DNA of 46,275 bases, taken from a virus. Positions 26,239 through 45,714 of the stretch are shown in pieces (position 1 is the first letter of the stretch; every line of letters begins with the position of its first letter). A program made the translations under genes and the position numbers. Under the pieces are notes generated by a model, which saw only the letters and a list, made by a program, of their open reading frames with translations, was not told the origin of the DNA and did no database searches. The stretch covers positions 1 through 46,275 of the IMG/VR virus record IMGVR_UViG_3300018003_000003. One strand, 5' to 3'.

Positions 26239-27087
26239 TTAGCTCATCTCTTCGCTTAATCTACGTTTTGTCATTTCGACATACTTAGCGTTCACGTCGA
26301 TGCCAATATACCCGCGACCCAGTCTTCTCGCTACGAGGCACGTCGTTCCGCTGCCGACGAACGGGTCTAGTACCGTTCCATTCTCGGGACAGCCGGCGAG
26401 TATCATCGGTTCTACGAGCGCCTCGGGGAACACGGCGAAATGTTCTTCTGTGTTAGCGCGAGGGGGGTTAATGCTCCACACGCAGCGCTTATTTCGCCCG
26501 CGCTCTGGGTCGATAGACTCGATAATTCGGCGTTTAGTGTCACTCGGGTTCTGCGCTTTAGCACTCGAATAGTCCTTCTGTGCTCGCCCCCCGTATGCTT
26601 TCTGCTTTAGCGTTATCTCGGCATACGGCTCAAAAATCTGGTTCCAGTAGTAGTCTTTCGACTTTACGAAGTGATAGACATACTCAAAATCCAGAGTGAA
26701 ATCGTCCTTCACGCTCTGCGGAAGGCAGCTCGGCTTATGCCAGATGATTGTTCTTCGCTTTAGCCACGTGTAACGACAGTAAAAGTCCATAGCAAAACGC
26801 ATAGCCAGCGCGAACTGTTCTGGAATCATTAGGTCGCTCTTATTATAAAACGTAGTTCCAATAACGACAAAAACGTTTCCGGTGTCCTTCAGTACCTTAT
26901 GAACTTCGCTGAAGATGCTCATTAGATTTTTAATATACTCAGCTACCGAAAGCTCGGTTCCCAACCTGCTACCATATTCGCGTAGGTTATAGTAGGGTGG
27001 AGATGTGACGACGCAGTCGACTGACCCGGGTTTTAGCGTTTTTAGGACGTCTTTAGCATCGCCGTGAATCGCTTCTCTGATTAACAT
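26239..27087 (-). CDS. DNA methyltransferase, N4-cytosine/N6-adenine type, beta-class order
   Basis: 282 residues. The catalytic motif comes first (S29-P-P-Y32 in 'VVTSPPYYNLREYG') and the S-adenosylmethionine motif last ('LDPFVGSGTTCLVARRLGRGYIGIDVN'), the beta-class order. The SPPY form is common in N4-cytosine enzymes, though N6-adenine cannot be excluded. No matching restriction gene is adjacent, so it is an orphan enzyme, probably protecting viral DNA or altering expression. A TTAACA-N2-TGTTAA dyad covers its start codon. Confidence 0.88.
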   Translation of the reverse strand: MLIREAIHGDAKDVLKTLKPGSVDCVVTSPPYYNLREYGSRLGTELSVAEYIKNLMSIFSEVHKVLKDTGNVFVVIGTTFYNKSDLMIPEQFALAMRFAMDFYCRYTWLKRRTIIWHKPSCLPQSVKDDFTLDFEYVYHFVKSKDYYWNQIFEPYAEITLKQKAYGGRAQKDYSSAKAQNPSDTKRRIIESIDPERGRNKRCVWSINPPRANTEEHFAVFPEALVEPMILAGCPENGTVLDPFVGSGTTCLVARRLGRGYIGIDVNAKYVEMTKRRLSEEMS

Positions 27088-27094
27088 GTGTTAA
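27081..27094. promoter_or_regulatory. Operator-like dyad at methyltransferase start codon
   Basis: TTAACATGTGTTAA. The ATG of the methyltransferase lies inside it (27085-27087). The same 14 bp occur at 45701-45714. Confidence 0.65.
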
Positions 27095-27399
27095 CTTTTT
27101 TTATTATATTTTGCTTCGGGGTGTAGTCGATGATACCGCGCTCTGTCCTTCTCACGCTGCCGCTCTTTCACTTCGGGACGCTGGCTGTACTTGGCATAAT
27201 ACGCCTTCCGCTTGCTTTCCTTCTCTTCAGCCGACATTAGTACTCTCTCTTTTCGCGGGAACCACGTATTATAAACGTCTACGAGCGGGCCGTTCCAGTT
27301 ATTAATCTGAATCGTCCTGTCGGAACCGAAGCACTTACGTCTAGCCTTGACTCGAATTTCGTTCTCGATAGATACGTTGGTATAATCTGTTTCGTTCAC
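27091..27399 (-). CDS. Basic protein with 'RPEVKERQREKDRARY' repeat type
   Basis: 102 residues, very rich in Lys/Arg. The C-terminal half has phage HNH-associated repeats ('SKRKAYYAKYSQRPEVKERQREKDRARY'). The N-terminal half is 'CFGSDRTIQINNWNGPLVDVYNTWFPRKERVL'. Probably DNA-associated. Overlaps the next gene by 59 bp. Confidence 0.6.
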   Translation of the reverse strand: MNETDYTNVSIENEIRVKARRKCFGSDRTIQINNWNGPLVDVYNTWFPRKERVLMSAEEKESKRKAYYAKYSQRPEVKERQREKDRARYHRLHPEAKYNKKS

Positions 27400-27529
27400 G
27401 TTTTCTCAAGTCCAGTCGTCTTTTCAGTTTAAATTCAGCGGTCTGTTCGCGGGCTCGACGTCTGGCTTTCACGTCTGGTCGAGCGTGGTATTCTCTGTCC
27501 TTAAGCTTTCTTCGCTCGTCGTCGCTCAT
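27341..27529 (-). CDS. Basic repeat protein
   Basis: 62 residues, over 40% Lys/Arg/Glu: 'DREYHARPDVKARRRAREQTAEFKLKRRLDLRKRERNR'. Related to its downstream neighbour by the 'RP[DE]VKxR' motif, so the two may be diverged halves or duplicates. Overlaps both neighbours. Confidence 0.55.
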   Translation of the reverse strand: MSDDERRKLKDREYHARPDVKARRRAREQTAEFKLKRRLDLRKRERNRLYQRIYRERNSSQG

Positions 27530-27860
27530 TTCTGATTTCTACGGTTTCTTCTTCAGTGAACGGTGATTCTTCGGTGTCGGTGTCTGATTTAATATGAAGA
27601 GCAATAAGATAATCTACCCTATCCATCAGTTGATTTACTTTAGATTTTAGCGCGTCGATTTCTATTTCGTGTAGGAGAAGTCGTTCTTCACGGTCAGGCT
27701 CATAGCGCGAACAGCACCTTGCGAGGTCTTCGTTGTCCCCGAAGCGAACTTTACCTAGTCTATCACACTTAACCCTGTAGTCCAATCCTGAGTGTTTCAG
27801 TTTAAGGCAGTTGTCGCACGATTCACATTTACACGTCTGCATTTTAAATCCCAGTTTCAT
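27501..27860 (-). CDS. Cysteine-rich finger plus coiled coil
   Basis: 119 residues. Residues 9-50: 'CKCESCDNCLKLKHSGLDYRVKC' and 'RCCSRYEP', a CxC..C..C type cluster shared with archaeal viral finger proteins. Residues 55-90 form a coiled coil ('LLHEIEIDALKSKVNQLMDRVDYLI'). An internal ATG (residue 7) is an alternative start. First gene after the GC-rich island, so a promoter upstream is likely. Confidence 0.65.
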   Translation of the reverse strand: MKLGFKMQTCKCESCDNCLKLKHSGLDYRVKCDRLGKVRFGDNEDLARCCSRYEPDREERLLLHEIEIDALKSKVNQLMDRVDYLIALHIKSDTDTEESPFTEEETVEIRNERRRAKKA

Positions 27861-27894
27861 TAGTTAGTCGTTAGTAAGTAAGCGTTCGACAAAT

Positions 27895-27902
27895 GTTATA
27901 AA
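27895..27902 (-). promoter_or_regulatory. TATA-like box upstream of 27860 gene
   Basis: TTTATAAC on the minus strand about 35-42 nt before the ATG, with a purine-rich BRE-like stretch upstream. Position and sequence fit an archaeal promoter. Confidence 0.4.
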
Positions 27903-28969
27903 CATATCCACCGTTTCCCCGAGAAAGACGTGTCCGGACTGTAAGCGTTCGACGATTTAGTCTGAAGTTGTTTGAATTCCGGGAGTGAGCACCCCCTGTT
28001 GGCCACATCCGCCGGGCGGTTGAGACTCATTTTTTCCAACCGGACATTCCTAGCCGCACAATCGAGCCCCCGTTTGCGCCCCCGCTTCCGAGGTAGGGTG
28101 CTCCCTACCCCGCCCTATCGCTAGGGCTCTAGAAGCCAAGTATACTTGCCGAACCCCGGCCAGAACAGCGGACTGCTTCTAGCAACGTCCGGCTTCTCCG
28201 GCTTTGTCCGATTGGGTTGTCCGGCTGAAGATTTCTTTCTGCTCTGAGATGTCTCGGCTTAGAACTGAAGTCGTCGCTTCGCTACGCATTGCCTGTTCGC
28301 ACGTCTCGTCTTAGCCTGTTCGCTTCTATCCTACTGAGTGTGTCTTTAGTAGTGTAGTCCTCATCTCTTCGCGGGGCGAAGCCGGACAAGCAGAGTCACC
28401 ACGACGCTTCTATAGCCCATCGGCCTGACATACCTCGCCCTAGCCCTCGAGTCCTAGTCCCACTGAGTTATCTGGTCTAGCCGGACACTTCTTTCTCGCG
28501 TCTCGCGCTGAGTCCTCGAGTCCGGGTCTGACTGAGTCGGGTCTCGTCTCGTCTTCGTCTGGGTCTTCGTCTGTCTACTATAGCAACAATCCACTGAGTT
28601 ATACACTGGCTCATCGCGGGCCGATGCCGGGCCACTGCTATCAATCCGGCGATACCTCCTTCACCAATCGAGCAACCGGGAAGGCGGCATTGGCGGGGTA
28701 ACTAACCGACATAGTAGAAGGGTGCGGTGTTATCGGTGTGCTGTCGAAGCCGAGGCTGAAGTGGCTGAGTGGCTGAAGGCCGTAGGCCGCTTAGGCCGCT
28801 GAGCCGCACCTTCCCGAGCAACTTGCCAGCCCTACCAACGGCTACCCCGATTGGCTTTTGGTGGTTTGGTTTGTCCGGCCAACTTGGTTACCTATTGATT
28901 ACGCCACCCTATCAGTTGGAGCATCTTAAACTATCACCGAGAGGGTAGTATATAAAGGACTAAAGAGCC

Positions 28970-31471: not shown

Positions 31472-32320
31472 CTATACCCCTATGTCGAAGTCCCAATCGT
31501 CGTTTTCATCAGTCCACGCGTCGTCTGAGTATTGGAATATATTAGAAATATTTTCTATAAACTCACAATGATATTCCTGTTCGAACTTCCAGCTCACCAT
31601 TCGGTCTTTCTCTTCCTGTAAGAATTCCGATGTTATTCGCGGGCAGTCTTCGGCTTTAACGCTGAACCATCGCCAGCCCGGTTTATTATCTTCGTGAGCT
31701 TCAGTCCACGCCTCGAAGAAGAAACCACGCTTACCGTGCGGGGTGGAGAGTAGCATAATTTTAGTTTCCATCCCCATACCCTCCGATACGGCAAGCATTG
31801 GGCGAACAAAATCATAAGCGTCTTCCTCTACCATAGAGGCTTCGTCTACTATAAGAAGTGTAAGTTTTGACCACCCTCTGAGCGAATCCGGCTGGCGGCC
31901 AGTCATCGCCATAATTCTAGCTTTATTAGCGAACTCGACCTCGAAGACTGTATCTTTTAACGTGCCGATTCTGTCGGGAACGTGACCGTAGAACTCCATT
32001 ATCTTTCTGAAGGTTTCCTTCGCTTGCTTTTCGGTGTTAGAAATGATAATTACTAACGCTTTGGGCGTGTGTAGCGCGTGATGTAACGCCATTAGCGCGG
32101 TTATCGTCGATTTACCAGACTGCCGACAGCAGTTCAGAATAATCCGTCGAGAATCCGAGCGTAGAACCTCTTTCTGCCATTCGTCTAGCTCGACTGGTTT
32201 TCCCAAGTCACGGCTGAGAACGTCATTAGCGAAAACAACCGGGTTCTGATAGGCAATAGCCTGTATCTCTTTTTTAGTTAAGCCGGTTCCTAACGGCTTC
32301 TTCTTCGGTTTTCTACCCAT
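31472..32320 (-). CDS. Terminase large subunit, ATPase half
   Basis: 282 residues. Walker A is at 63-72 ('NCCRQSGKST', the deviant form of phage terminases), Walker B at about 154-160 ('LLIVDEASMVEE'), and the coupling motif at 192-194 ('LSTPHG'). The chain ends at an acidic tail ('DDAWTDENDDWDFDIGV') with no nuclease domain. The stop is followed by a tiny ATG frame (11 codons). It powers DNA translocation and pairs with the nuclease gene at 30317-31126. Confidence 0.9.
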   Translation of the reverse strand: MGRKPKKKPLGTGLTKKEIQAIAYQNPVVFANDVLSRDLGKPVELDEWQKEVLRSDSRRIILNCCRQSGKSTITALMALHHALHTPKALVIIISNTEKQAKETFRKIMEFYGHVPDRIGTLKDTVFEVEFANKARIMAMTGRQPDSLRGWSKLTLLIVDEASMVEEDAYDFVRPMLAVSEGMGMETKIMLLSTPHGKRGFFFEAWTEAHEDNKPGWRWFSVKAEDCPRITSEFLQEEKDRMVSWKFEQEYHCEFIENISNIFQYSDDAWTDENDDWDFDIGV

Positions 32321-32323: not shown

Positions 32324-32340
32324 TTAACACGACGTGTTAA
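32324..32340. promoter_or_regulatory. Operator-like dyad upstream of terminase ATPase
   Basis: TTAACA-N5-TGTTAA, four bases before the terminase ATG. The + strand TTA at 32324-32326 is also the stop codon of the 39-residue gene. Confidence 0.5.
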
Positions 32341-32443
32341 TGAACCTGTAAAACAAAAATATACCTCTCAGCGTGTCAGCTAATCTCAGAGGGTAAACAA
32401 CTGAAATTACGTGATGCTTCTTTATTTTACTATTCCCTTTCAT
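32324..32443 (-). CDS. 39-residue basic peptide in terminase operon
   Basis: 'MKGNSKIKKHHVISVVYPLRLADTLRGIFLFYRFINTSC', basic then hydrophobic. GGAG lies about 8 nt before the ATG. Its upstream operator is at 32458-32471 and its stop codon lies in the next operator. Role unknown. Confidence 0.5.
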   Translation of the reverse strand: MKGNSKIKKHHVISVVYPLRLADTLRGIFLFYRFINTSC

Positions 32444-32457
32444 TTTTAATCTCCTGT

Positions 32458-32471
32458 TTAACACGTGTTAA
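32458..32471. promoter_or_regulatory. Operator-like perfect palindrome
   Basis: TTAACACGTGTTAA, a perfect 14-bp palindrome at the end of the small terminase gene (it contains that gene's stop codon) and 15 bp before the 39-residue gene's ATG. The same 14 bp occur at 42329-42342. Confidence 0.65.
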
Positions 32472-33016
32472 TTCTGTGACATTTCAAGTAACGTAGTCAT
32501 ATACTCTTCTTGTTTCGCGGGGTCGTTCGGGAAGATAACCTTAAGCTTCTTCGCGACGTCCTTCGGGTCTTTAATGTCTATCTGTATAGGCTCTTGCGGG
32601 ACGATTCCTATAGATTGAGCTGCCTGTAGCTTTCTGAACGTGATTTCCTTAAGCTCAGCGGCAGCTCTTTGGCGTTCTCGCATATCGGGAAGTTTAAACG
32701 GCCACATCGGTCGCCCTTCTTCAGTGAGTAACATCCCGTTTGAATCTGTCCTGTCAGGCGAGGCGTCGATGATTAGCCAGTTCCGACGAATCAGTTCGTC
32801 TAGCTCGAAGAGTGTGTCTTTTATCATTTTGTCCTTATCAGGCTCTTCGACTATGTCCCACTCGTTTCGCTTCTTCCAGTCGCGATAAAGCTGTTGTTTA
32901 CCAACGTGATAAATCTTAGCGATTTTATTAACGGCTTCAGACTTTCGGGCTCCGTGAGCCATTAAAAGATAAAAGTCCATTCGACGTTTTTGAATCTCTT
33001 CTTGTTTTTTTGTCAT
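32468..33016 (-). CDS. Small terminase subunit
   Basis: 182 residues from the ATG at 33016, which overlaps the preceding stop (ATGA). The N-terminal frame extension is not used. A helix-turn-helix at about 12-50 ('GARKSEAVNKIAKIYHVGKQQLYRDW') binds DNA. The middle is helical, for oligomerisation, and the C-terminal 'IDIKDPKDVAKKLKVIFPNDPAKQEEYMTTLLEM' may contact the large subunit. It recognises the packaging site. Confidence 0.82.
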   Translation of the reverse strand: MTKKQEEIQKRRMDFYLLMAHGARKSEAVNKIAKIYHVGKQQLYRDWKKRNEWDIVEEPDKDKMIKDTLFELDELIRRNWLIIDASPDRTDSNGMLLTEEGRPMWPFKLPDMRERQRAAAELKEITFRKLQAAQSIGIVPQEPIQIDIKDPKDVAKKLKVIFPNDPAKQEEYMTTLLEMSQN

Positions 33017-33141
33017 CGTGAAAGCAACTCCCCTAGAGCGCAGTACAAACAACCGATGTCATCCTGATTTGCCCTTCTGTCGGGGCTCCTACACTTTCGG
33101 TTTTTTGACCACTGACATACTATCTTTTCATTATCGTTCAT
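33013..33141 (-). CDS. 42-residue cysteine protein at terminase operon head
   Basis: 'IVCQWSKNRKCRSPDRRANQDDIGCLYC', four cysteines in a CxxxxxxxxC/CxxC arrangement with a basic middle, suggesting a small DNA- or RNA-binding finger. First gene after a TATA-like box and overlapping the small terminase start by 4 bp. Confidence 0.6.
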   Translation of the reverse strand: MNDNEKIVCQWSKNRKCRSPDRRANQDDIGCLYCALGELLSR

Positions 33142-33159: not shown

Positions 33160-33174
33160 TGAGTTTATATAAAT
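33160..33174 (-). promoter_or_regulatory. Promoter of the terminase operon
   Basis: The minus-strand TATA box ATTTATATAAAC has a purine-rich GCGAAA before it and lies about 25-30 nt before the ATG at 33141, the expected archaeal distance for a leaderless or short-leader transcript. It overlaps the end of the GNAT gene. Confidence 0.6.
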
Positions 33175-33818
33175 TTCGCACCTTTCATCTTTTTACGGTC
33201 GAGTAAGTAGTATCTCATCACCGCCAGTTTACTCTGCGCTTGTGTCTCTGACCTGACTTTACCGCCTTTAGCCTCATAAAGCCACGTGTGCGGATTCACT
33301 CTAGAACGAACGCCTCGGTTGCCTATTAAGGTAGACTTCTGCTTTCGTTTGTTCGACTTACCGCCTATGGCAACGGTTCCGCCTATGGTGTCACTTAGAG
33401 TTTGGCCGTAGTCGATGAAACCAGCCTTTTTCCAGAAGAGGTTTACCTTACCCATCGAGGCTATTAGCTCCACGTATCGCACGTCTACCAAATCGTCATA
33501 CAGGCACACTGCCGCAACGAAATCAGAAGCTATCCCACATCCTCTATAGCGTGGGTCGATAACGACGCGACTAAGATTAATGAACTTGGCATTTGTTAGT
33601 TTCGCTCCTTTCGTGGTCATCTTCTTAGAAATCTTACCGCCGAAGACCTTATTACGAACCGAGTTTGCCAGACCCGGCGGACTGAAGCTGATAAACGCGA
33701 TGGGTTCGCCGTTATGAATAAGAGTGTAGGCGCATCTTATGAATCCGATTTCTGAGCCTCGATAGTGCCACTTACTGAATCTGTTCCAATCGCTTCGAGA
33801 GCCTCGTGCAATGAACAA
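33165..33818 (-). CDS. GNAT-fold, Mom-like acyltransferase (possible C-terminal half of COG2401-type protein)
   Basis: 217 residues from TTG. An N-terminal block 'ARGSRSDWNRFSKWHYRGSEIGF' precedes acyl-CoA-type motif A 'SRVVIDPRYRGCGIASDFV' and 'FWKKAGFIDYGQT', then a basic tail. This resembles the GNAT part of COG2401 proteins (ABC-type ATPase fused to an acetyltransferase domain) and, more distantly, Mu Mom, which modifies adenine in DNA. It overlaps the ATPase gene by 82 bp. Slippage at an A9 run would join them in one chain. DNA modification is inferred. Confidence 0.72.
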   Translation of the reverse strand: MFIARGSRSDWNRFSKWHYRGSEIGFIRCAYTLIHNGEPIAFISFSPPGLANSVRNKVFGGKISKKMTTKGAKLTNAKFINLSRVVIDPRYRGCGIASDFVAAVCLYDDLVDVRYVELIASMGKVNLFWKKAGFIDYGQTLSDTIGGTVAIGGKSNKRKQKSTLIGNRGVRSRVNPHTWLYEAKGGKVRSETQAQSKLAVMRYYLLDRKKMKGAKFI

Positions 33819-34468
33819 ATCGTCATAAAAGCTAATTTTTTTTTAATTTCGTTCTGATGTGAGACTTCCGCACCCTCGGCGCCGAAGGTAACTATAATGT
33901 CAGGATATAAGTCTTCTAGGATGTCCTCGTGTGTCGTCGCGACAGCGAGAATCTTATCTGTTTTTCTAATCGCTTTTCCTATGCTGAAGGCGATAGTCTT
34001 CGCTGAGATTCTGTCTAACGTTGCAAGAAATTCGTCGCACACTACCACAGAATTTTTGCTTGATAACCCCAACGCCAGCTTAAACCGATAGCGCTGGCCG
34101 TCGGATAACTCTTGAGGGTATCGAACAAGAAGTTGAGCTTCTGCCAGCCCCGCGATTGAAAGATTCTTCAGGGCTTCGTCATAATCGGCGAAGTGTTCTA
34201 TGACGGTTTTCTCCGGCTCGAAGACTATCTCGCGAAGGTCGTAGGCTTCTGTTTGCGCCTTAAGCTGCTCTAGGCACGTAGTTTTTCCGGTTCCAGATAT
34301 GCCTACAAAAGCGATTATCTGTCCGGGCTTGGCCTCGATTGTAAAGGGAGCTACGTAGACGCGTTTGCCCTGTTCGGCGTCTAGGCCGAAGCTGCCATAG
34401 ACACGGCCAGCCTGTAGACTTGGTCTTTTAGGTTTCAGCTCGTACTCCACGGAACATTTTACTTTCAT
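33737..34468 (-). CDS. ABC-type ATPase (N-terminal half of COG2401-like protein)
   Basis: 243 residues from the ATG at 34468 (overlaps the preceding stop). Walker A 'GISGTGKTT' at 56-64, signature 'LSDGQRYRFKLAL' at 121-133, Walker B 'VVVCDEFLATLD' at about 141-152, H-loop 'TTHED' at 179-183. The signature and Walker motifs are those of soluble ABC ATPases. No membrane domain is nearby. The last ~35 residues after the A9 run differ from the expected fusion. Confidence 0.82.
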   Translation of the reverse strand: MKVKCSVEYELKPKRPSLQAGRVYGSFGLDAEQGKRVYVAPFTIEAKPGQIIAFVGISGTGKTTCLEQLKAQTEAYDLREIVFEPEKTVIEHFADYDEALKNLSIAGLAEAQLLVRYPQELSDGQRYRFKLALGLSSKNSVVVCDEFLATLDRISAKTIAFSIGKAIRKTDKILAVATTHEDILEDLYPDIIVTFGAEGAEVSHQNEIKKKLAFMTICSLHEALEAIGTDSVSGTIEAQKSDS

Positions 34469-34614
34469 TTTAACTCTCGCTCTTTTCGGTCTATCTGGTT
34501 CTGAATAATCTCTCGCCATAAGTCAGGGTATAGATACACAATAGACATAGGGAATAACTCATCTGGAAAGACTGTCATCCAGCGCTTCATTAACTTAACG
34601 TCTTCTTCGGTCAT
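34465..34614 (-). CDS. 49-residue helical protein
   Basis: 'EDVKLMKRWMTVFPDELFPMSIVYLYPDLWREIIQNQIDRKEREL', helical and acidic/basic. Starts with the GTCAT-type ATG after the PQ-loop gene and overlaps the ATPase start (ATGA). Probably part of the same operon. Role unknown. Confidence 0.5.
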   Translation of the reverse strand: MTEEDVKLMKRWMTVFPDELFPMSIVYLYPDLWREIIQNQIDRKERELK

Positions 34615-34615
34615 C

Positions 34616-34873
34616 TTATATCACCTTCTTTATTACCAGAATAGAAAGTATGAGTAACATAACCCACGCACCGACGTCGATTAAATCGCCGGTCACGGCC
34701 AGCCACAGCCCCAGACTCGCATAGATGAAACATAATAATGATAACGCACCTGCTGTCGTGATACACGTTATGAGGTTTAACGCCTGTTTTTTTCTGTATA
34801 CGTCGAATATTTGCGGGACGAGCAGAAACCCGAATATCAGGTTAACGCCGAGTAGCGCTACGTCTTGCCACAT
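34616..34873 (-). CDS. PQ-loop/SemiSWEET-like membrane protein
   Basis: 85 residues from the ATG at 34873, which overlaps the upstream TAA. Three membrane spans: 'VALLGVNLIFGFLLVPQIFDVY', 'LITCITTAGALSLLCFIYASLGLWLAV' and 'VGAWVMLLILSILVI'. 'LVPQIFDVYRKK' contains the Pro-Gln motif of PQ-loop transporters. The ~85-residue, three-span size equals that of bacterial SemiSWEET half-transporters. Function in a virus is unknown. Confidence 0.66.
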   Translation of the reverse strand: MWQDVALLGVNLIFGFLLVPQIFDVYRKKQALNLITCITTAGALSLLCFIYASLGLWLAVTGDLIDVGAWVMLLILSILVIKKVI

Positions 34874-35049
34874 TATAAACCACACATCTTAAGCTCAGCT
34901 TCGCTCATTTCAGATTTAGGAATAGTTACCCACGAGAAGCTGCACTTCGGACACGTCGAGAGAATGACGTCCAGAGAGAGAATAAATTCTGGAACAATCT
35001 CTAGGCACGCGCCCTTACACCACGGACAGAGTATCTTTATGGTTTCCAC
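34873..35049 (-). CDS. Zinc-ribbon protein with GTG start
   Basis: 58 residues: 'ILCPWCKGACLEIVPEFILSLDVILSTCPKCSFSWV', two CxxC knuckles. It overlaps the HNH gene (upstream) by 13 bp and the PQ-loop gene's ATG by one base. Role unknown. Confidence 0.6.
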   Translation of the reverse strand: METIKILCPWCKGACLEIVPEFILSLDVILSTCPKCSFSWVTIPKSEMSEAELKMCGL

Positions 35050-35366
35050 GTCTTCGCTTCCTTTGCTCGTGCTCTGAATAGCTCAGCGTCTTCTCTTATT
35101 CGCGGGTTGAATTTCTTCCAGTTACAGAAATGCCCGAAGGTGAAATGATGCTCTTCGCAAAGAGCGAACAGATTCTCGACGTCTAGCTCCTTAGTCCGGT
35201 CGACCCAGTAGGGTACGACGTGATGTGCGACTAAGGTTTTTACGCCTCGGTTACGAACGCCACAGAACTCGCACTTATCGTGTAGCTTAAGGAACTGCCT
35301 TCTTAGCCTGTCCCATTCAGAGTTGCGGGTGATTCGCGCCAGTTCAAGCGGTTCTTTGTGTTGCAT
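35037..35366 (-). CDS. HNH endonuclease (second copy type)
   Basis: 109 residues: 'LRRQFLKLHDKCEFCGVRN' (CxxC), 'TLVAHHVVPYWVDRTKELDVENLFALCEEHHFTFGHFCNWKKF' (AHH, Asn, 'LC..HH..FGH'). The C-terminal layout is closely parallel to the 21.6-kb HNH protein, suggesting an ancient duplication. Typical of phage HNH packaging nucleases or homing enzymes. Adjacent to neither terminase gene. Confidence 0.8.
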   Translation of the reverse strand: MQHKEPLELARITRNSEWDRLRRQFLKLHDKCEFCGVRNRGVKTLVAHHVVPYWVDRTKELDVENLFALCEEHHFTFGHFCNWKKFNPRIREDAELFRARAKEAKTWKP

Positions 35367-35571
35367 CGAGACGTTTAAGCTTCATATTAACTACGTGCAA
35401 CGTGTTCGCGGCGGTTTCTACTTCTACGTAGGCATAAACGACATTAGCCCGTCTGTACATATCCTTCGATATTTCTCGAAGAGTATTCACTACTATGTCC
35501 AACTGCTCATTAATGTCCGCTATGCTATTCGCGGGGCTAAGAGAGTCTACATAATGTTGTGTTCCGTTCAT
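35344..35571 (-). CDS. Helical protein sharing a PANSIADIN peptide with 20.6-kb gene
   Basis: 75 residues: 'LSPANSIADINEQLDIVVNTLREISKDMYRRANVVYAYVEVETAANTLHVV'. After the shared N-terminal peptide the rest is an amphipathic helix unrelated to the 20.6-kb winged-helix protein. It overlaps the HNH gene by 23 bp and its upstream gene by 4 bp. Role unknown. Confidence 0.58.
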   Translation of the reverse strand: MNGTQHYVDSLSPANSIADINEQLDIVVNTLREISKDMYRRANVVYAYVEVETAANTLHVVNMKLKRLDATQRTA

Positions 35572-36218
35572 TCTTTCGCGTCCTCTTTTATTCTCTTAAT
35601 CACGTCGAGCTGATTTTCGCCTAACTCCCACTTACCGCATCCTGTCATCGGCGATTCACCGTCTAACTCGCAATAGACATACACGTCGCCTAACAATCGT
35701 TTTTCATCCTCGCGGGACTCATTAAACCGCACACCATACGGCGCTAAATGCGAGCAATGGGCGCACCACGTCTTAACATCCATTATGCTCTTCAGTCTGA
35801 GCTTCCCGTGGTTCTCTCTGTGCATCATCCACCGGCGTATCTGCCAGCCCATTATCAGCTCATACGGTTCGATAGGCGTAGTTAGCTTAGGCCAGTGGTG
35901 AGCTTTACACTGCTGACGCATCGGCCACGATACCGCCTTACAGGCGGGCATATAGTTTAGACACGTCTCTGGTTTAACAGCTTCAATCGCGCAGAGTCCC
36001 GTCGTGTGGAACGGACACGGCTTCTGGTAGATTGTGCCTTCGTAGACTTGCTTACCGTCGACTTTATAGCGCCAGTTCTCGGGGTAGGTGAAACAGTACA
36101 GTTCTCGGAACTTCTCTTCTGAAATGCCAAGATACTCAGCTATCCGCTCTGGTTCGCCCGGTCTAAAAGAAATATGGCTAAAGGACGAGCAACATAACCC
36201 ATAACAGTTCGCGCTCAT
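35568..36218 (-). CDS. YkgJ-type Cys-rich metal-binding protein
   Basis: 216 residues from the ATG at 36218 (a longer frame from 36293 overlaps the preceding membrane gene). 'SANCYGLCCSSFSHISF' at the start, then 'CPFHTTGLCAIEAVKPETCLNYMPAC', the CxxxCC...C...GxCxI..vkP..C pattern of YkgJ-like zinc/iron-chelating proteins. A second Cys set follows ('CAHCSH', 'YCELDG'). Family function is not well defined. Confidence 0.7.
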   Translation of the reverse strand: MSANCYGLCCSSFSHISFRPGEPERIAEYLGISEEKFRELYCFTYPENWRYKVDGKQVYEGTIYQKPCPFHTTGLCAIEAVKPETCLNYMPACKAVSWPMRQQCKAHHWPKLTTPIEPYELIMGWQIRRWMMHRENHGKLRLKSIMDVKTWCAHCSHLAPYGVRFNESREDEKRLLGDVYVYCELDGESPMTGCGKWELGENQLDVIKRIKEDAKE

Positions 36219-36220
36219 AG

Positions 36221-36316
36221 CTATCTTACTATTAAATACGTCACGTATGACAGAATACACACCATAGCGCAGACTGCCATCACGTAGATACAATAGAAAT
36301 CGTATTTACCAGCCAT
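36221..36316 (-). CDS. 31-residue single-span membrane peptide
   Basis: 'AGKYDFYCIYVMAVCAMVCILSYVTYLIVR': one membrane span with three cysteines. Its TAG is 2 bp before the YkgJ-like ATG. AAAATG start with GGTG upstream. Role unknown. Confidence 0.52.
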   Translation of the reverse strand: MAGKYDFYCIYVMAVCAMVCILSYVTYLIVR

Positions 36317-36322
36317 TTTACC

Positions 36323-36601
36323 TCACCAGTGGGGCTTAAGCCGCCCCTCGCTTTTCGCTCTGTCGACGTCGGCCTCAGCACACTCGTCGCATAGAACAAG
36401 TATCCGCGACGGCGCTTTAACTGAGTACCAGTCGTCTTTCTCCATATTAAACATCGAACCGCACCCGTCGCAGTGCATAACAGGTTTCTCCTTAGTGCTT
36501 TTCCACGCGGGGTCGTTTAGGTGCTCAGGGTTAATCGGTTTAATTCTATCGCGGGCGAACCCGCGCTGGTTTTTAACTTTAGGCCACTTATACGTCGGCA
36601 T
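36323..36601 (-). CDS. Basic zinc-ribbon protein
   Basis: 92 residues from the ATG at 36601; the longer frame from 36661 runs back into the previous gene. Basic N-terminus 'PTYKWPKVKNQRGFARDRIKPINPE', then 'MHCDGCGSMFNMEKDDWYSVKAPSRILVLCDECAEADV', a two-knuckle ribbon. Probably DNA-binding. Confidence 0.66.
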   Translation of the reverse strand: MPTYKWPKVKNQRGFARDRIKPINPEHLNDPAWKSTKEKPVMHCDGCGSMFNMEKDDWYSVKAPSRILVLCDECAEADVDRAKSEGRLKPHW

Positions 36602-36602
36602 T

Positions 36603-37475
36603 TTAGTACCTTTTATCGTATATCTCGCACGTAGTCCAATGCCACAATGCCTGTGCTCCATTCGAGCCGTCTGCTGCTACGGGCGCTGGTGGTGTTGGCG
36701 TCGGAGTTGGCGAACCGCCAGCCCATAATACAACATCGTCAGCCCAGTTACCGCCGGCCGAGAGGTCGAGAACTGTATCATCCTCGCGCCACGAGTAGAG
36801 ATACGCTCCGCACGGAAATCCTGTTACTGCCGCATCAGCACACGGCGCTCCGCTTTCTATGCAGTTACCGATAGCGTAATTACCCGCGCTCGCCCACTGA
36901 CTCGCGTCGGGAAGGTTTACTGAAACTTGGAAATAATAGTTCGTGTTAAGCTGAAGATTATAGTCGAAAACCCAGTATATACGTCCCTCATCAGCGCAAC
37001 CGGCTAGTGGTATCGAAACTGGTTTAGCGCTTCCTACGCCTAGCCAGAACTGAACGCTGTTATCATTATAGCTCGGTGATTCGTTATAGGCAATCTCAAC
37101 AGTGAAGTTATAGGTACTTGCTACGCCTGAAAGACAGCCGTCAGACACGCCGTGAAGGTAGCCATAATAGAGGTCGTTTCCAGCGCTCCACAGCTTACCG
37201 TCGTTACCATCCTGAATACCGCCTTCACAGCCAGCGCCCGGCCACCACTGGTTTATGTTTAAACCGGCTTGCCACGTGTGGTTGTACGGGCTGTTTATGC
37301 CGGGTACGTTAATCCCGTCTGTGTTAGCCGTCAACGGCCCCCACATCGGATTTCCTAGCGAGTTTTTCTGAAACTGTGCTCTGACCGCTTGACCGTTATA
37401 CGCTGAACCGCCCGCGCCCTGATTAAGTATGCTCTTCGAGTTTTGTGCAAAGTTATAATGTAGATATTGCGTCAT
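36603..37475 (-). CDS. Virion surface-type protein with Pro-Thr linker and vestigial propeller
   Basis: 290 residues. A beta-rich N-terminal ~255 residues with many aromatics and cysteines ('GAGCEGGIQDGNDGKLW', 'YGYLHGVSDGCLSG') suggests a carbohydrate-binding or glycoside-hydrolase-like fold. It ends in 'PTPTPTPPAPVAADGS' followed by only ~18 residues. The same linker-plus-'PVxADG' introduces full lectin-like propellers in the 19.3 and 40.5-kb proteins, so this C-terminus looks truncated. Likely an adhesin or entry protein. Confidence 0.68.
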   Translation of the reverse strand: MTQYLHYNFAQNSKSILNQGAGGSAYNGQAVRAQFQKNSLGNPMWGPLTANTDGINVPGINSPYNHTWQAGLNINQWWPGAGCEGGIQDGNDGKLWSAGNDLYYGYLHGVSDGCLSGVASTYNFTVEIAYNESPSYNDNSVQFWLGVGSAKPVSIPLAGCADEGRIYWVFDYNLQLNTNYYFQVSVNLPDASQWASAGNYAIGNCIESGAPCADAAVTGFPCGAYLYSWREDDTVLDLSAGGNWADDVVLWAGGSPTPTPTPPAPVAADGSNGAQALWHWTTCEIYDKRY

Positions 37476-37479
37476 TTTA

Positions 37480-38058
37480 TCATACCTGTTGAATATGCGG
37501 AGTTAAGTTCGTTATCGAAATGAACTGCTCTATCGAATCCTTGTTATTCTCATATTCGGGCTTGCTCATTCTGAACGATATAATAATAAAGTCCTTCTCT
37601 TCGCTCATTTCGCCGTCGAAGCTCGGCTCAGCGGTTAGTGGTTCAGCGAGAATCTCATCACGTTCGTTAATGTTAAACGCCGTGATGTCCAGATTTACTC
37701 CCGCATCGCGCAAGTCATCGAACATATCTATTAATTCGGCGTTATCCCACTCGCTCATCTCGGATAACTTATTATCCGCTATAAGATACGCTTCGTCGAG
37801 GTGCTCGGGGAATTTAAATATCCTGACAGGGAATGTCTTTAGTCCCGCGCGTTTAGCGGCCTTAAGTCGAGCGTGTCCGGCTATGATGTTATAGTCCTCG
37901 TCGACTATCATAGGCACGGTCGTACCGAAGTTATTAAAGCTCTCGATTAAGCGTTTTATCTCATCTTCTGAGTGTACTCTAGGATTTCGCGGGTTGCCTT
38001 TCAGCTTATCCAGCGGAACCTCTTCGTCGCGAATGAAGTACGGTGAATTATTCGTCAT
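37480..38058 (-). CDS. ParB/Srx-fold protein
   Basis: 192 residues. 'VPLDKLKGNPRNPRVHSEDEIKRLIESFNNFG' and 'VDEDYNIIAGHARLKAAKRAGLKTFPVRI' are the core of ParB-like nuclease/NTP-binding domains. The C-terminal part is helical. In phages such proteins often sit with DNA methyltransferases or replication genes. Here the methyltransferase is 10 kb away. Segregation or DNA modification are both possible. Confidence 0.8.
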   Translation of the reverse strand: MTNNSPYFIRDEEVPLDKLKGNPRNPRVHSEDEIKRLIESFNNFGTTVPMIVDEDYNIIAGHARLKAAKRAGLKTFPVRIFKFPEHLDEAYLIADNKLSEMSEWDNAELIDMFDDLRDAGVNLDITAFNINERDEILAEPLTAEPSFDGEMSEEKDFIIISFRMSKPEYENNKDSIEQFISITNLTPHIQQV

Positions 38059-39315: not shown

Positions 39316-39545
39316 TATCCGTAATTTCTCTGTAGCTCCTGACCCCGAGCGCCCCCGAAGTCACGCATAAGATTAACGCAGAACCCCCACGTTTCGAGTA
39401 ACTGTCTAACTAACATATCGGCACATCGCGGGCAGAAGTACTGTCCTTCTATCATCGTCACGCTTGGCATACGGCACGTCGGGACAGAACAGTAGCCTAT
39501 AGCCACCTGTTTCTTCTCGCCGAGATAATATTCTGGCATTACCAT
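39315..39545 (-). CDS. Zinc-ribbon protein
   Basis: 76 residues: 'YCSVPTCRMPSVTMIEGQYFCPRCADMLVRQLLETWGFCVNLM', C...C...CxxC knuckles then a helix. Overlaps the 132-residue gene by 7 bp. Role unknown. Confidence 0.6.
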   Translation of the reverse strand: MVMPEYYLGEKKQVAIGYCSVPTCRMPSVTMIEGQYFCPRCADMLVRQLLETWGFCVNLMRDFGGARGQELQRNYG

Positions 39546-39937
39546 ATTTTCACCGTACTGATATGTTCTTTAACGAGCGTCTCCATCACGTCGTTTCTGT
39601 GCATACCTTTAACTTTAGCGACCGATTCTATTTCCTTAACGAACTGCTTCTTAACGTTAATCGTGTTCGGGTACAGCCGGACAGATGCTTTTACCTTAGT
39701 TACCCTGCGCTGTTTACGGGTCTTAGTTCTGTATGTCCCGCGCTGCTGTCTACACGTATCGCATATAGCCGTGCCTCGCGTGGCTGGTTTACCGCACGAA
39801 CATAACCCTTGCGCTTTAAGTCTCTCGCGGCGTTTCTTACCTAGTTCGCGACAATGCTCTCGACAATGCTCACACTGTCTATGATAGTCATTATCCGGTA
39901 TGAGCCGGTGACACGCACCATGTGAACACTCTCTCAT
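39539..39937 (-). CDS. Zinc-knuckle and RHH-like DNA-binding protein
   Basis: 132 residues. Residues 4-60 hold two cysteine sets ('CSHGACHRLIPDNDYHRQCEHC', 'LCSCGKPATRGTAICDTC'). The C-terminal part is basic, then 'TINVKKQFVKEIESVAKVKGMHRNDVMETLVKEHI', a ribbon-helix-helix pattern. Its ATG overlaps the RHH gene upstream (TAATGA). A likely DNA-binding regulator. Confidence 0.66.
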   Translation of the reverse strand: MRECSHGACHRLIPDNDYHRQCEHCREHCRELGKKRRERLKAQGLCSCGKPATRGTAICDTCRQQRGTYRTKTRKQRRVTKVKASVRLYPNTINVKKQFVKEIESVAKVKGMHRNDVMETLVKEHISTVKIW

Positions 39938-42164: not shown

Positions 42165-42165
42165 C

Positions 42166-42306
42166 TTAAATTTTCATCCTCCGCCGACAGTCGTTGCATA
42201 TCAGCTTCGGGTTGCCGGTCAGCTCGATAGGCTTCTGCTTCCCACAGCCGATACATAGCCCAACCATCTTAGGTATGTCCTTCTTTTTCTTTTCGTACTT
42301 CGCCAT
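42166..42306 (-). CDS. 46-residue zinc-ribbon peptide downstream of an operator
   Basis: 'GLCIGCGKQKPIELTGNPKLICNDCRRRMKI': one ribbon with basic ends. It begins 23 bp after the palindrome TTAACACGTGTTAA, so it heads a candidate operon (42306 leftward). Confidence 0.6.
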   Translation of the reverse strand: MAKYEKKKKDIPKMVGLCIGCGKQKPIELTGNPKLICNDCRRRMKI

Positions 42307-42328: not shown

Positions 42329-42342
42329 TTAACACGTGTTAA
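42329..42342. promoter_or_regulatory. Operator-like perfect palindrome
   Basis: TTAACACGTGTTAA, identical to 32458-32471, in the intergenic gap between the PD-(D/E)XK gene and the 46-residue zinc gene. Confidence 0.65.
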
Positions 42343-42372
42343 TCATAGCTACGACGTAATATACTTTAGTAA

Positions 42373-43173: not shown

Positions 43174-43323
43174 TTAACATCCTCGATTAGATTCTTCTTT
43201 AACACACGCACGACAATGTAGTCGTCTTATGCCAGCGATTTGACGTTCGTGCCGGACGGTAAACCCCTTTATACAGAGGTCTCCGCGATGTCGGCTATTC
43301 TTACACTCACATTTAATTATCAT
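43174..43323 (-). CDS. 49-residue Cys-rich protein, tandem paralogue 1
   Basis: 'IIKCECKNSRHRGDLCIKGFTVRHERQIAGIRRLHCRACVKE' aligns with the upstream gene 'IKCGCAKSRNHGYICVHGFTAQHERDGILRYCRKCVED'. CxC...C...CxxC likely binds zinc. TAAATG overlap with the PD-(D/E)XK start. Confidence 0.6.
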   Translation of the reverse strand: MIIKCECKNSRHRGDLCIKGFTVRHERQIAGIRRLHCRACVKEESNRGC

Positions 43324-43448
43324 GTCTCGTCTTCGACACACTTACGACAGTATCGTAGTATGCCATCGCGTTCGTGCTGAGCGGTGAAACCGTGTACACA
43401 GATATAACCGTGATTTCGGGACTTCGCGCAGCCGCATTTAATTCTCAT
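43320..43448 (-). CDS. 42-residue Cys-rich protein, tandem paralogue 2
   Basis: 'MRIKCGCAKSRNHGYICVHGFTAQHERDGILRYCRKCVEDET'. Same CxC...C...CxxC layout as its downstream paralogue. Overlaps both neighbours by 4 bp. Confidence 0.6.
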   Translation of the reverse strand: MRIKCGCAKSRNHGYICVHGFTAQHERDGILRYCRKCVEDET

Positions 43449-43657
43449 ATCTCTTTTTGCTTTAGAACGCATAAAATCACCACTTTAGTTCGACCGGCGT
43501 AGTTTTTGCAGTAGTAACACCGCCGGATTGTTCTACCGCGCGAAGGCTGCCAGACGTTCTTAGGGCAAAAGACGCGACCGATGTTACCTTTTGCACCGCC
43601 CCACGTAATCTGAACCTGACGCGGCTCTTCGTGTCGTATTAATACTTGTTCTTGCAT
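43445..43657 (-). CDS. Cys-containing basic protein
   Basis: 70 residues: 'VLIRHEEPRQVQITWGGAKGNIGRVFCPKNVWQPSRGRTIRRCYYCKNYAGRTKVVILC', basic with four cysteines. Possibly a small nucleic-acid-binding protein. No family was recognised. Confidence 0.56.
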   Translation of the reverse strand: MQEQVLIRHEEPRQVQITWGGAKGNIGRVFCPKNVWQPSRGRTIRRCYYCKNYAGRTKVVILCVLKQKEI

Positions 43658-44056
43658 TTACCAGTCTCCGCACGTGTAGGCGGGGTTATCGAGCGGCGGT
43701 AGTGGTTCGTCGAAATGAAAATCATAGTCCTCGACGTAACCTGTGCGCAGCCCAACTACTTCGAGCGCATTTTCTCTCGATATTTCGTTTACGTTCCCTC
43801 TACCTGACACTTGAATATAAAACGTGTCAGAATCAACGCCGGCGTCTAACGTTCGAATAACGTAGACGTGATGGTTAACAAGATGGTAAATACGCGATTC
43901 GATAACCCCGCCTTCGTGGCGAGTGGCGTCTATCTTCCACAGCGGCCCCTCTAAGAAACGAACTTGCGTATCCTTATCCTCTTTCATAAGTCGAATACAC
44001 TCAAAGATGCTCTCGTTAAGCGGTAGCTTAACTAGATTCTTACCCATTACCTGCAT
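43658..44056 (-). CDS. Unknown 132-residue beta-rich protein
   Basis: Alternating strands ('VRFLEGPLWKIDATRHEGGVIESRIYHLVNHHVYVIRTLDAGVDSDTFYIQVS') and an acidic Pro-rich end. Start ATG at 44056 has GAGG 4 nt upstream. No family was recognised. Confidence 0.62.
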   Translation of the reverse strand: MQVMGKNLVKLPLNESIFECIRLMKEDKDTQVRFLEGPLWKIDATRHEGGVIESRIYHLVNHHVYVIRTLDAGVDSDTFYIQVSGRGNVNEISRENALEVVGLRTGYVEDYDFHFDEPLPPLDNPAYTCGDW

Positions 44057-44285
44057 TTAGCCTCGCTTCTCGACGACGATTAACGCTTATTGCGTTATAG
44101 TATGCTTTTTTGCACTTCTCGCTGCAATACTGTCGCTCATTCGCTTTAGTGTGCTTAATCAGTTGTTTTCTTTCCCAGTGTGCTAATACTGGTGTAAACT
44201 CAGTTCCACACCATTTACAGTTTCGCGGGGCGGCTAGCTTATCCGGTCGAGGATGTACCTCTAGTCTTTGAATACCTAGCGGCAC
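44040..44285 (-). CDS. FCS-type zinc-finger protein, paralogue 1
   Basis: 81 residues: 'NCKWCGTEFTPVLAHWERKQLIKHTKANERQYCSEKCKKAYYNAI' (CxxC...YCSEKC). The same fold occurs in the next gene, in the half-finger at 38.9 kb, and more distantly at 14.3-14.8 kb. Confidence 0.66.
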   Translation of the reverse strand: MPLGIQRLEVHPRPDKLAAPRNCKWCGTEFTPVLAHWERKQLIKHTKANERQYCSEKCKKAYYNAISVNRRREARLNAGNG

Positions 44286-44512
44286 GTATTCACCTTAAAA
44301 CGAGTCCACGCTTTATTGCACTCTTTACTACAGTAGACTCTATTTTTCGCTCGCGTGAGCTTAACCTGCTGCATACCGACCCAGTAGCCAACTAAAGGAC
44401 TGAACTCTTTACCGCACCATTTACAGTTTCGCGGCATAGCGTATCGTGGGTTATGCGCGTTCGTGTGACCTTCGTATTCGAGCTGTAAAGTTCTGTTCGT
44501 GTGAACTGTCAT
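44276..44512 (-). CDS. FCS-type zinc-finger protein, paralogue 2
   Basis: 78 residues: 'NCKWCGKEFSPLVGYWVGMQQVKLTRAKNRVYCSKECNKAWTRF', paralogous to the downstream gene, with which it overlaps 10 bp. Probably DNA- or protein-binding. Confidence 0.66.
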   Translation of the reverse strand: MTVHTNRTLQLEYEGHTNAHNPRYAMPRNCKWCGKEFSPLVGYWVGMQQVKLTRAKNRVYCSKECNKAWTRFKVNTCR

Positions 44513-44593
44513 CTAGTACATCTCGTTTCTACAGTCGAACGGGGTACAGTTACGGCAGACTGTCCTACCGTAGCGAATCCACAGAGTTTTTCC

Positions 44594-44713
44594 TCATATC
44601 ACACATTTACGTAATACAAACATGCTTTTCACGGTTTCATCGCGGGCCAGTTTTGGAAGCTCTGATTCTTCGCACTCGCCTTCATTGAAGGAATTCCATT
44701 TAACGATTGTCAA
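44594..44713 (-). CDS. Short protein with TTG start, uncertain
   Basis: 39 residues from a TTG at 44713: 'TIVKWNSFNEGECEESELPKLARDETVKSMFVLRKCVI'. The longer frame from 44821 lies inside the upstream gene and looks like a shadow. The same frame continues after the TGA (44594-44596) with a Cys-rich stretch 'VCRNCTPFDC' to TAG 44513-44515. This could be an unrelated short frame (CTG start) or readthrough. Confidence 0.4.
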   Translation of the reverse strand: MTIVKWNSFNEGECEESELPKLARDETVKSMFVLRKCVI

Positions 44714-45317
44714 CTTCGGTTCCGGTTCTGACGTGCGTATACACTGACGCCTCTGCCATCGCTTGCGACAGCACTGGTTTCGGTATGAGAATAACGACTG
44801 ACGTCCAGCCAGTATTCTCAACGTCTATCTCAGGGTACGTATCGCGCCACTCTTTTTCATTCAGCGCCCACGCTCGTTGCAGCATAGGTCTATCCAGCAT
44901 GTGAGTAACGCCATTTATAAAGTGATAGGCGATATAGTTCGCTCTACTCGTGTAGAGCCAGCCCTTTCTCGTATTAAAAACAGACCATAGCTCTAGGGTA
45001 ATATTACCTGTTTTATAGTACCTGTCGCGCTTTTCTTCGATTCTGAAGTACTGGTCTGTGTCTTCCAGCTTAATCTCTCTGTCGTAGCCTTTAAACTGCT
45101 CGACGATATTCTCAACATAACGAATAGTAAGATTATCGGTTCCGAAGAACTCTCTATAAAAAACATCCATCTCGTCGAGGTATTTAGGCTCCTGACTGAA
45201 GGCCAGCGCGTCCTTAAACGATTCTGTTGTCATAATGATGGTGGGCGCTGAGCCTGCACCACACAGGTCTGCGAAGGGATTTGCCACTTTACTAAGAATT
45301 GACTCAGCGCCTTTCAC
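44700..45317 (-). CDS. Possible PD-(D/E)XK-like protein
   Basis: 205 residues from a GTG at 45317. An ATG at 45233 is an alternative. 'DRYYKTGNITLELWSVFNTRKGWLYTSRANYIAYHF' fits the pattern of PD-(D/E)XK-type phage proteins with 'tGNi.iE' followed by 'GW...a.yi.Y', but the second catalytic lysine is not obvious. It directly follows the winged-helix regulator and may be an early nuclease or inhibitor. Confidence 0.55.
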   Translation of the reverse strand: MKGAESILSKVANPFADLCGAGSAPTIIMTTESFKDALAFSQEPKYLDEMDVFYREFFGTDNLTIRYVENIVEQFKGYDREIKLEDTDQYFRIEEKRDRYYKTGNITLELWSVFNTRKGWLYTSRANYIAYHFINGVTHMLDRPMLQRAWALNEKEWRDTYPEIDVENTGWTSVVILIPKPVLSQAMAEASVYTHVRTGTEVDNR

Positions 45318-45318
45318 C

Positions 45319-45693
45319 TCACAGGTTATTTAAACTTTCTAGTTTCTCAGTCGCGTAGTACACAAATCTTCGATTCTTCTTTCGTTCGGCGATGATGTAG
45401 CCGTGTCTCGCCAGTCGTTGCATCTTTCGTAGTATCGTAGAATATGAAGGGGGTACTTCTCGCGGGTTAGTCGGCGTAAATGATTCGAGTAACTCATTCG
45501 AGGTGCAACGAGACTGCGAGAGTACCTTATTAAGAATCCGTCGGTCGATTAAGTCAAGTGGTAGAGACGTCTCACTCTCGTTATAATGATAGCCTAGATT
45601 ATAGTGTCTGCCGCAGTCTGAACAGATAAGAACTACCTTATGAGCTACGCTTTCGTAGTGCAGCTTACCATCACACGCACATTTCTTAATCAT
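45319..45693 (-). CDS. Zinc-ribbon winged-helix transcription regulator
   Basis: 124 residues. N-terminal zinc ribbon 'KKCACDGKLHYESVAHKVVLICSDCGRH' (C5, C7, C24, C27) and a winged helix over about 45-118 ('DLIDRRILNKVLSQSRCTSNELLESF...YSTILRKMQRLARHGYIIAERKKNRRFVYYAT'). A TTAACA-N2-TGTTAA dyad and a TGTTAATTAACA palindrome lie directly before its ATG, as expected for self-control. It is the best candidate to bind the same dyad at 27.08, 32.32, 32.46 and 42.33 kb. This is inference from position. Confidence 0.8.
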   Translation of the reverse strand: MIKKCACDGKLHYESVAHKVVLICSDCGRHYNLGYHYNESETSLPLDLIDRRILNKVLSQSRCTSNELLESFTPTNPREVPPSYSTILRKMQRLARHGYIIAERKKNRRFVYYATEKLESLNNL

Positions 45694-45694
45694 C

Positions 45695-45714
45695 TGTTAA
45701 TTAACATGTGTTAA
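45695..45714. promoter_or_regulatory. Double operator-like site upstream of regulator
   Basis: TGTTAATTAACA (45695-45706, perfect palindrome) overlaps TTAACATGTGTTAA (45701-45714). It begins 2 bp before the regulator's ATG, in the 5' untranslated region or promoter. Confidence 0.6.

Follow-up and report, generated by a model that had tools for sequence, protein, structure and literature searches.

Dispersed palindromic dyads in two spellings as putative operators of a winged-helix regulator in related archaeal tailed viruses

The virus record IMGVR_UViG_3300018003_000003 of IMG/VR, a fragment of 46,275 bp that was analysed over its whole length (hereafter the window, or G000), carries the dyad TTAACA-N2-TGTTAA at several places, and related viruses carry it either in the same form (type 1) or in a changed spelling, TTRACC-AS-TGTYAA (type 2). 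As judged from the sequences, these dyads are probably dispersed operators for a regulator that archaeal tailed viruses of one lineage encode themselves, and a zinc-ribbon winged-helix protein of 124 residues encoded in the window is their most likely reader. A search of the open-licence full-text literature, which covered the type-1 word and archaeal-virus operators but not the type-2 word, found these sites described nowhere.

The window holds exactly four copies of TTAACA-N2-TGTTAA, the same four that a preliminary description of this DNA had listed (Table 1), against 0.0037 expected from base composition and 0.005 from a first-order Markov model (200 simulations). None of 100 dinucleotide shuffles contained a single exact dyad, in line with the earlier view that such half-site pairs are very unlikely by chance, and the reversed control pattern had no copy in the window. 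In an unbiased scan for perfect 6+6 dyads with gaps of 0-20, which returned 259 dyads of 253 kinds in the window, TTAACA-N2-TGTTAA was the top outlier and the sole kind with more than two copies. Besides, the relaxed form TTWACA-N2-TGTWAA occurs six times in the window and ten times in its collinear relative, the record G015 (0.04 and 0.025 expected), the window exceeds expectation in two-mismatch type-1 copies (8 versus 2.08), and the half-site TTAACA itself is mildly over-represented there (39 versus 24.5). That start codons fall within the dyad is to be expected in part, as NTG is contained in it on either strand.

The genes of the window are collinear with those of G015 (IMGVR_UViG_3300046673_000114; 80,483 bp) and, more distantly, with those of G001 (86,814 bp) and G014 (102,175 bp). 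An Orc1/Cdc6 protein is among the gene products of G015 (Cdc6 lid, E 2.3e-19), so that viruses of this lineage most likely infect archaea, and the label of phage used at first is replaced here by that of an archaeal virus. Exact type-1 copies were found in seven records, namely the window and G015-G020; with G015-G018 and G019-G020 being sets of near-duplicates, these records represent three types. The records G016-G018 closely resemble G015 and have portal and capsid genes for which G015 showed no match, and G019-G020 form a sister type, nearly identical to one another. Eight exact copies with variable N2 and four one-mismatch copies are present in G015, where TTAACA-N2-TGTTAA again ranks first in the dyad scan with no other kind above two copies, and where two-mismatch copies show no excess (4 versus 5.24). 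The records G016, G017, G018, G019 and G020 have 1, 2, 1, 1 and 1 exact copies, G020 having one one-mismatch copy in addition, and two one-mismatch type-1 copies were seen in G014.

Over 17 sites, N2 was CG four times, AG and TA three times each, CT and TG twice each, and CC, GG and AC once each. Position 3 of the type-1 word is mostly A and sometimes T, the change of A3 to T accounting for four of the six one-mismatch copies in the window, G015 and G020. Three alignable orthologous pairs (G015 1980/G017 8158, G017 20842/G019 20648 and G015 77801/G020 11951) differ at none of 36 half-site positions, at four of six N2 positions and at 20 of 90 flanking positions; both members of each pair had been found by motif matching, so that this comparison is biased and is supportive rather than a clean test. 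The preliminary description had proposed to look for the motif in relatives and for conserved half-sites in homologous loci, and the motif does recur, unchanged in the half-sites of these motif-selected pairs, in G015-G020 as such and in G014 and G001 in its changed spelling.

The word of G014 and G001, TTRACC-AS-TGTYAA (TTAACCAGTGTCAA), has one half-site (TGTYAA) and the spacing of N2 in common with type 1, its other half being TTRACC; it is slightly asymmetric, and both orientations are present in both viruses. Counted on both strands, there are eight copies in G014 and five in G001 against 0.007 and 0.006 expected, in the same genomes from which the consensus was derived; the eight G014 copies alone yield this consensus, so that G001 provides a confirmation in a related but separate virus. 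The type-2 word has no copy in the window, G015 or G016-G020, and among 139 loci it was found only in stretches of G014 and G001. Perfect-dyad scans of these two viruses gave nothing of note, as such scans miss a word that is not a perfect dyad. The notion that G014 and G001 are motif-free is ruled out by the shared type-2 word and by an excess of two-mismatch type-1 copies (13 versus 4.96 in G014, P 0.002; 8 versus 3.85 in G001, P 0.04). Moreover, type-2 copies occupy the same place in both viruses at G014/G001 positions 47453/49874, 33956/37143, 37612/41987 and 22550/28376.

The lineage pattern was drawn from several sets of relatives. With up to one mismatch allowed, seven of 18 records matched in the type-1 search. 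The capsid-protein scan contributed the best 80 of 524 matches, and for 16 of these the entire record was searched at up to one mismatch; stretches of the other relatives were searched for exact copies, and 111 of 132 loci were without a match. Relatives by the terminase large subunit (TerL) comprised 13 loci, 12 of which were tested together with L018; no type-1 site, even at one mismatch, was present in the 13 records concerned, G001 included, and the only winged-helix homologue was that in G001. The ABC-ATPase relatives L134 and L135 had neither a TTWACANNTGTWAA site nor a winged helix. Additionally, a single-protein scan with the winged-helix protein gave no match in viral contigs, the same protein gave only a 27% match (E 0.7) in phage records, and the genome contigs held no relative by capsid protein or by winged-helix alignment.

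The winged-helix protein stands out as the best candidate binder of the dyads, as the preliminary description had proposed for its regulator, on account of its fold class and PF03965 match together with the operator core and the co-variation of helix and operator. Its N-terminal CxC...CxxC is followed by a winged helix that matches PF03965 with 24.8 bits (cut-off 22.6) over positions 6-67 of 115. Foldseek searches with an AlphaFold2 model (predicted local distance difference test, pLDDT, 77; 4 sequences) returned MecI as the top five chains (E 1e-4 to 1e-3), with AspA, PadR, BlaI and MarR close behind; sequence profiles gave weak matches to Lrp, AspA and MecI chains, and a two-sequence profile gave no useful match. 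According to PMC7253601, BlaI and MecI recognise TACA/TGTA, the family operator being TACANNTGTA and that of CopY RNYKACANNTGTMRNY. The type-1 core, ACA-N2-TGT, has the same gap as TACA-N2-TGTA and is the kind of site that one would expect a protein of this class to bind; in type 2, one of the halves reads ACC.

The split between the operator spellings, with the window and G015 on one side and G014 and G001 on the other, is also the one along which the recognition helices differ. The winged-helix homologues of G014 and G001 are 34-39% identical to that of the window, and the predicted recognition helix (residues 84-97) is identical at 12 of 14 positions between the window and G015 and at 13 of 14 between G014 and G001, compared with 6 and 7 of 14 between the window and G014 and G001, respectively. 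The 12 of 14 identities of the window and G015 exceed the 55 of 105 elsewhere with p 0.016, a value that is indicative only, the helix of 14 residues having been chosen from the model.

In the mechanism that we infer, a dimer of the winged-helix protein would read two half-sites 8 bp apart, much as MecI and BlaI do on TACA-N2-TGTA. The operator would be TTWACA-N2-TGTWAA in the subgroup of the window and G015 and TTRACC-AS-TGTYAA in that of G014 and G001, the recognition helix presumably having changed together with it. Promoter copies, which often stand beside a TATA box, would prevent or modulate the initiation of transcription, and intragenic copies may act as secondary silencing or roadblock sites.

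Site positions were taken relative to genes called by a greedy choice of open reading frames (ORFs), not by a trained gene finder. Between -10 and +40 bp of a start codon lie all four window sites, one of eight in G015, three of eight in G014 and one of five in G001, and such positions make up 11.8%, 10.8%, 7.8% and 8.4% of the respective sequences. Outside called ORFs of at least 40 amino acids lie three of eight sites in G015, three of eight in G014 and three of five in G001, compared with 12.3%, 7.9% and 7.8% of the sequence, so that the sites are enriched in non-coding DNA and not confined to it. These counts in the relatives, together with the two relaxed window copies, both of which are intragenic, contradict the claim that the motif occurs only at gene starts. 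TATA-like boxes lie near the G015 sites 35441 (24.5 bp before the centre), 63377 (about 23-25 bp, on both sides) and 77801 (about 30 bp beyond), 18.5 bp before the centre of the window dyad at 27081 and, by eye, also at window 42329, G014 7637 and 33956, and G001 21623 and 37143; the position of the dyad relative to the presumed promoter is variable.

Several places recur between the viruses. In the terminase region, the window has the dyad at 32458 and a copy with an N5 gap between the TerS-like gene and TerL, G014 has a site 66 bp before TerL (33956) and G001 one 56 bp before the gene preceding TerL (37143), both followed by a GGTATATAAAC box; only a one-mismatch copy, inside TerS (55024), is present in this region of G015. 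A site in the terminase region, where targets had been put forward, thus recurs in G014 and G001 and, in exact form, not in G015; the methyltransferase, another proposed target, is not conserved as such, G015 giving only a 36% partial match to it. The N5 copy, TTAACACGTCGTGTTAA, equals the N2 site TTAACACGTGTTAA plus a tandem CGT duplication, and TTAACA/TGTTAA pairs in G015 occur at a gap of 2 (eight) or of -8 (overlapping, two), with no further gap represented between -40 and +40; for these reasons it is not counted as a fifth equal site. It may represent a second N2 copy changed by slippage, and of the five exact half-site pairs first described the four N2 dyads stand, the N5 copy being present and doubtful as their equal. 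These two sequences flank an insert of about 148 bp (32324-32471) with a 39-codon ORF between the TerS-like gene and TerL, which is absent from G015, where the TerS-like gene (54658-55272) and TerL (55256-56134) overlap.

At the regulator gene, the window has a site upstream (45701), G014 an exact one inside the gene (22550) and G001 one with a single mismatch inside it (28376), the latter two at identical codons (INTGQ); a site at the winged-helix gene, as first described, therefore recurs in G014 and G001 and fails to do so in G015. The overlapping palindrome noted at this gene in the window, TGTTAATTAACA, is also present. Strong predicted hairpins lie directly upstream of the winged-helix gene in the window (45715-45800, minus strand) and in G015 (L123 2400-2500), both regions containing TTAGTCACCTC, which resembles an anti-Shine-Dalgarno sequence, and leader control of the regulator gene is possible.

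The region after the orthologue of window gene 15524-16015, before or near a small-gene operon, has sites in G014 (47453), G001 (49874) and G015 (77801), and the degenerate window copy at 14927 lies in the same neighbourhood. The 3' end of the orthologue of window gene 24606-24836 has sites at G015 66602, G014 37612 and G001 41987, the place of the degenerate window copy at 24649; the peptide L-T-x-V is shared here, and coding constraint may explain these sites, as the window copy may instead reflect this conserved peptide. Additionally, window 42329 is syntenic with the one-mismatch G015 copy at 49427, both lying between an exonuclease gene and that for a 92-residue protein. In G015 a promoter region with a conserved relaxed site precedes a ribbon-helix-helix (RHH)-like plus MUG113/T5orf172-type gene (L124 17878-18252), and the same region in G020 (L120 near 11951) has a different gene downstream. 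The two IS605-type TnpB genes of G015 (L122 7345-8454 and 16902-18020) each have a dyad in the non-coding DNA beside them (27046 and 38202).

Several observations weigh against the winged-helix protein as the reader of dispersed operators. The G015 homologue reaches only 18.8 on PF03965, below the cut-off, and those of G014 and G001 are not hit; in VIA-align, MecI is level with many winged helices, including MarR/ArsR-type ones (Z 10.1, best 11.2). The C-terminal dimerisation region of MecI and BlaI is lacking, the model having one 7-residue helix after the wing, and the protein is therefore not assigned to the BlaI/MecI family. The joint difference of helix and operator is one split on the tree, so that any other protein changed there fits equally, and other DNA-binding proteins are encoded in these viruses. 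Moreover, the regulator gene of G015 has no site (best, three mismatches), several sites are intragenic, and two of them coincide with a conserved L-T-x-V-N peptide, the coding of which could by itself yield such a word.

It is unlikely, in our estimation, that a different DNA-binding protein binds the sites, be it a viral RHH protein or a host regulator whose sites the viruses would carry. The type-1 word is the same 14-bp palindrome as the PrfA box, tTAACanntGTtAa, which is bound by the Crp/Fnr protein PrfA according to PMC5359189, with four exact copies in the window and eight in G015; other helix-turn-helix (HTH) classes can thus read this word, and the sequence alone does not name the binder. 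However, the Crp/Fnr class was not found in the window or G015 (the Crp-type HTH, PF13545, matched none of three, namely the window, G015 and G017, and gave only sub-cut-off matches in G014 and G001), PrfA belongs to an unrelated host, and the identity is likely convergent. A 57-residue RHH-like protein (window 12174-12347) has homologues in G015 and in G017-G020; in the latter four a dyad precedes its gene by about 400 bp within one ORF run, and the G015 homologue follows site 77801. No homologue was detected in G014 or G001, though both have operators, which is evidence against its being the common binder; in the window, the 750 bp upstream of its gene contain no site (best, four mismatches), and the product has no Pfam match. 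A zinc-ribbon plus RHH-like protein (window 39539-39937) is conserved in all four viruses, but RHH_1 matches are below the cut-off.

Quite improbable is the alternative that the words chiefly serve genome maintenance, as centromere-like, packaging or origin-related sites, and affect transcription only secondarily. The sites are spread across the genomes and partly intragenic, one copy lies about 300 bp before the Orc1/Cdc6 gene of G015, the ParB_N protein is 65% conserved between the window and G015, and G001 has a fuller ParB. Besides, AspA, a centromere-binding winged helix of an archaeal plasmid, is among the fold and profile matches, and the AspA-ParB-ParA system of plasmid pNOB8 shares with these viruses a small archaeal winged helix, a palindrome and ParB-type proteins. 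That system, however, has a 23-bp palindrome upstream of the AspA gene that AspA recognises (PMC5120986), spreading, and overlapping ParB and ParA genes, whereas the ParB_N gene of the window (37480-38058) is about 7 kb away from the winged-helix gene and not adjacent to it; no ParA was seen among the examined genes, though none was searched for, and in three viruses several operons have a copy beside a TATA box at their front. An artefact of chance or composition, in which stop/start junctions (TAA-CAC-RTG-TTAA), A/T-rich promoters or L-T-x-V-N peptides yield the word, deserves next to no credence: two window copies are on stop/start junctions, TTAACA is somewhat over-represented, and L-T-x-V-N is read in frame at G015 1980 and in the 66602/37612/41987 group, but many copies are non-coding, and the 4, 8, 8 and 5 copies in the four viruses face 0.004-0.01 expected, the counts in G015, G014 and G001 refuting chance as a general account of the dyads.

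Operators of the winged-helix protein would resemble the BlaI/MecI/CopY systems in the winged helix with its PF03965 match and in the core ACA-N2-TGT with identical spacing. They differ in that the viral protein has an N-terminal zinc ribbon and no C-terminal dimerisation domain, the viral half-sites have an outer TT, the promoters are of archaeal type, sister viruses have a second spelling, and the virus has five to ten dispersed sites, compared with one or two at one operon for BlaI, MecI and CopY. Dispersed repressor sites are already known from cluster A mycobacteriophages, whose stoperators are described in PMC9283540 as 13-bp, asymmetric, orientation-dependent and monomer-bound sites that number more than 20 per genome and lie in short intergenic spaces. 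Both systems have repressor sites across the viral genome, at promoters and elsewhere; the archaeal-virus sites are palindromic or nearly so, fewer, and in some cases intragenic, and they show no stoperator-type asymmetry with the orientation of transcription, type 1 being a perfect palindrome and type 2 occurring in both orientations. A more far-reaching reading, offered tentatively, is a genome-wide network like an immunity system, with one MecI-like zinc-ribbon repressor that would read five to ten sites in promoters as well as coding regions, and two specificity groups that would have arisen by joint change of the recognition helix and all sites. Such a split in specificity would resemble the heteroimmune groups of mycobacteriophages, but with a BlaI-class reading head.

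Table 1. Dyads, related sites and genes of the window
Feature	Position	Strand	Remarks
Exact dyad TTAACATGTGTTAA	27081..27094	.	spans the methyltransferase ATG (start codon on the minus strand)
Exact dyad TTAACACGTGTTAA	32458..32471	.	overlaps the TerS-like stop codon; 15-28 bp before the 39-codon ATG
17-bp 'N5' palindrome TTAACACGTCGTGTTAA	32324..32340	.	reads TTAACACG-T-CGTGTTAA; begins 4 bp before the TerL ATG
Exact dyad TTAACACGTGTTAA	42329..42342	.	between the exonuclease gene and the 46-residue zinc-ribbon ORF, 23-36 bp before the ORF
Exact dyad TTAACATGTGTTAA	45701..45714	.	8-21 bp before the winged-helix ATG
TGTTAATTAACA	45695-45706		overlaps the exact dyad at 45701
Relaxed site TTAACACCTGTAAA	2365..2378	.	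within a gene for 149 residues
Relaxed site TTTACACTTGTAAA	22688..22701	.	within a gene for 85 residues
Degenerate copy, two mismatches	14927..14940	.	before the small-gene operon; weak on its own
Degenerate copy, three mismatches	24649..24662	.	near the 3' end of a conserved gene for 76 residues (24606-24836)
124-residue protein, N-terminal Cys zinc ribbon and MecI-like winged helix; candidate binder	45319..45693	-	
N6/N4 DNA methyltransferase (PF01555)	26239..27087	-	
Terminase large subunit (TerL), ATPase part	31472..32320	-	
ORF of 39-46 codons between the TerS-like gene and TerL; stretch absent from G015	32324..32464	-	
TerS-like gene	32468..33052	-	assigned from its position and an HTH match below the cut-off; 41% identity in G015
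46-residue zinc-ribbon ORF	42166..42306	-	

Other features were recorded alongside the dyads. The packaging region of the window (33165-38058) has genes for a GNAT protein, an ABC-type ATPase (71% identical in G015, with no match in G014 or G001) and ParB_N, which may form a DNA-modification module. Tandem direct repeats occur at 26013-26129 (39 nt, three times, in a coding region) and 10492-10603 (56 nt, twice). The heptamer CCCGCGA is present 47 times on the minus (coding) strand of the whole window and 7 times on the other strand, and the octamer CCCGCGAA 24 times against 0.64 expected. This excess is not codon-driven, since it falls in all three frames and between genes, and no such excess was seen in G015, G014 or G001; it is a strand-skewed, window-specific DNA or RNA signal. 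In G014 (L126-L130), a GGTGAAAAATGAC-like word was noted, GGTGAAAAATG occurring 16 times against 0.06 expected, which is apparently a fixed ribosome-binding site with its start codon.

Little is known about operators and repressors in uncultured tailed viruses of archaea, and in the lineage described here the sequences show two operator spellings along with the variants of a single candidate regulator that match them. This leads to the sharp prediction that swapping the winged-helix protein should swap the preferred operator spelling. Moreover, if the intragenic copies work, genome-wide repressor sites would not be a habit of mycobacteriophages only.

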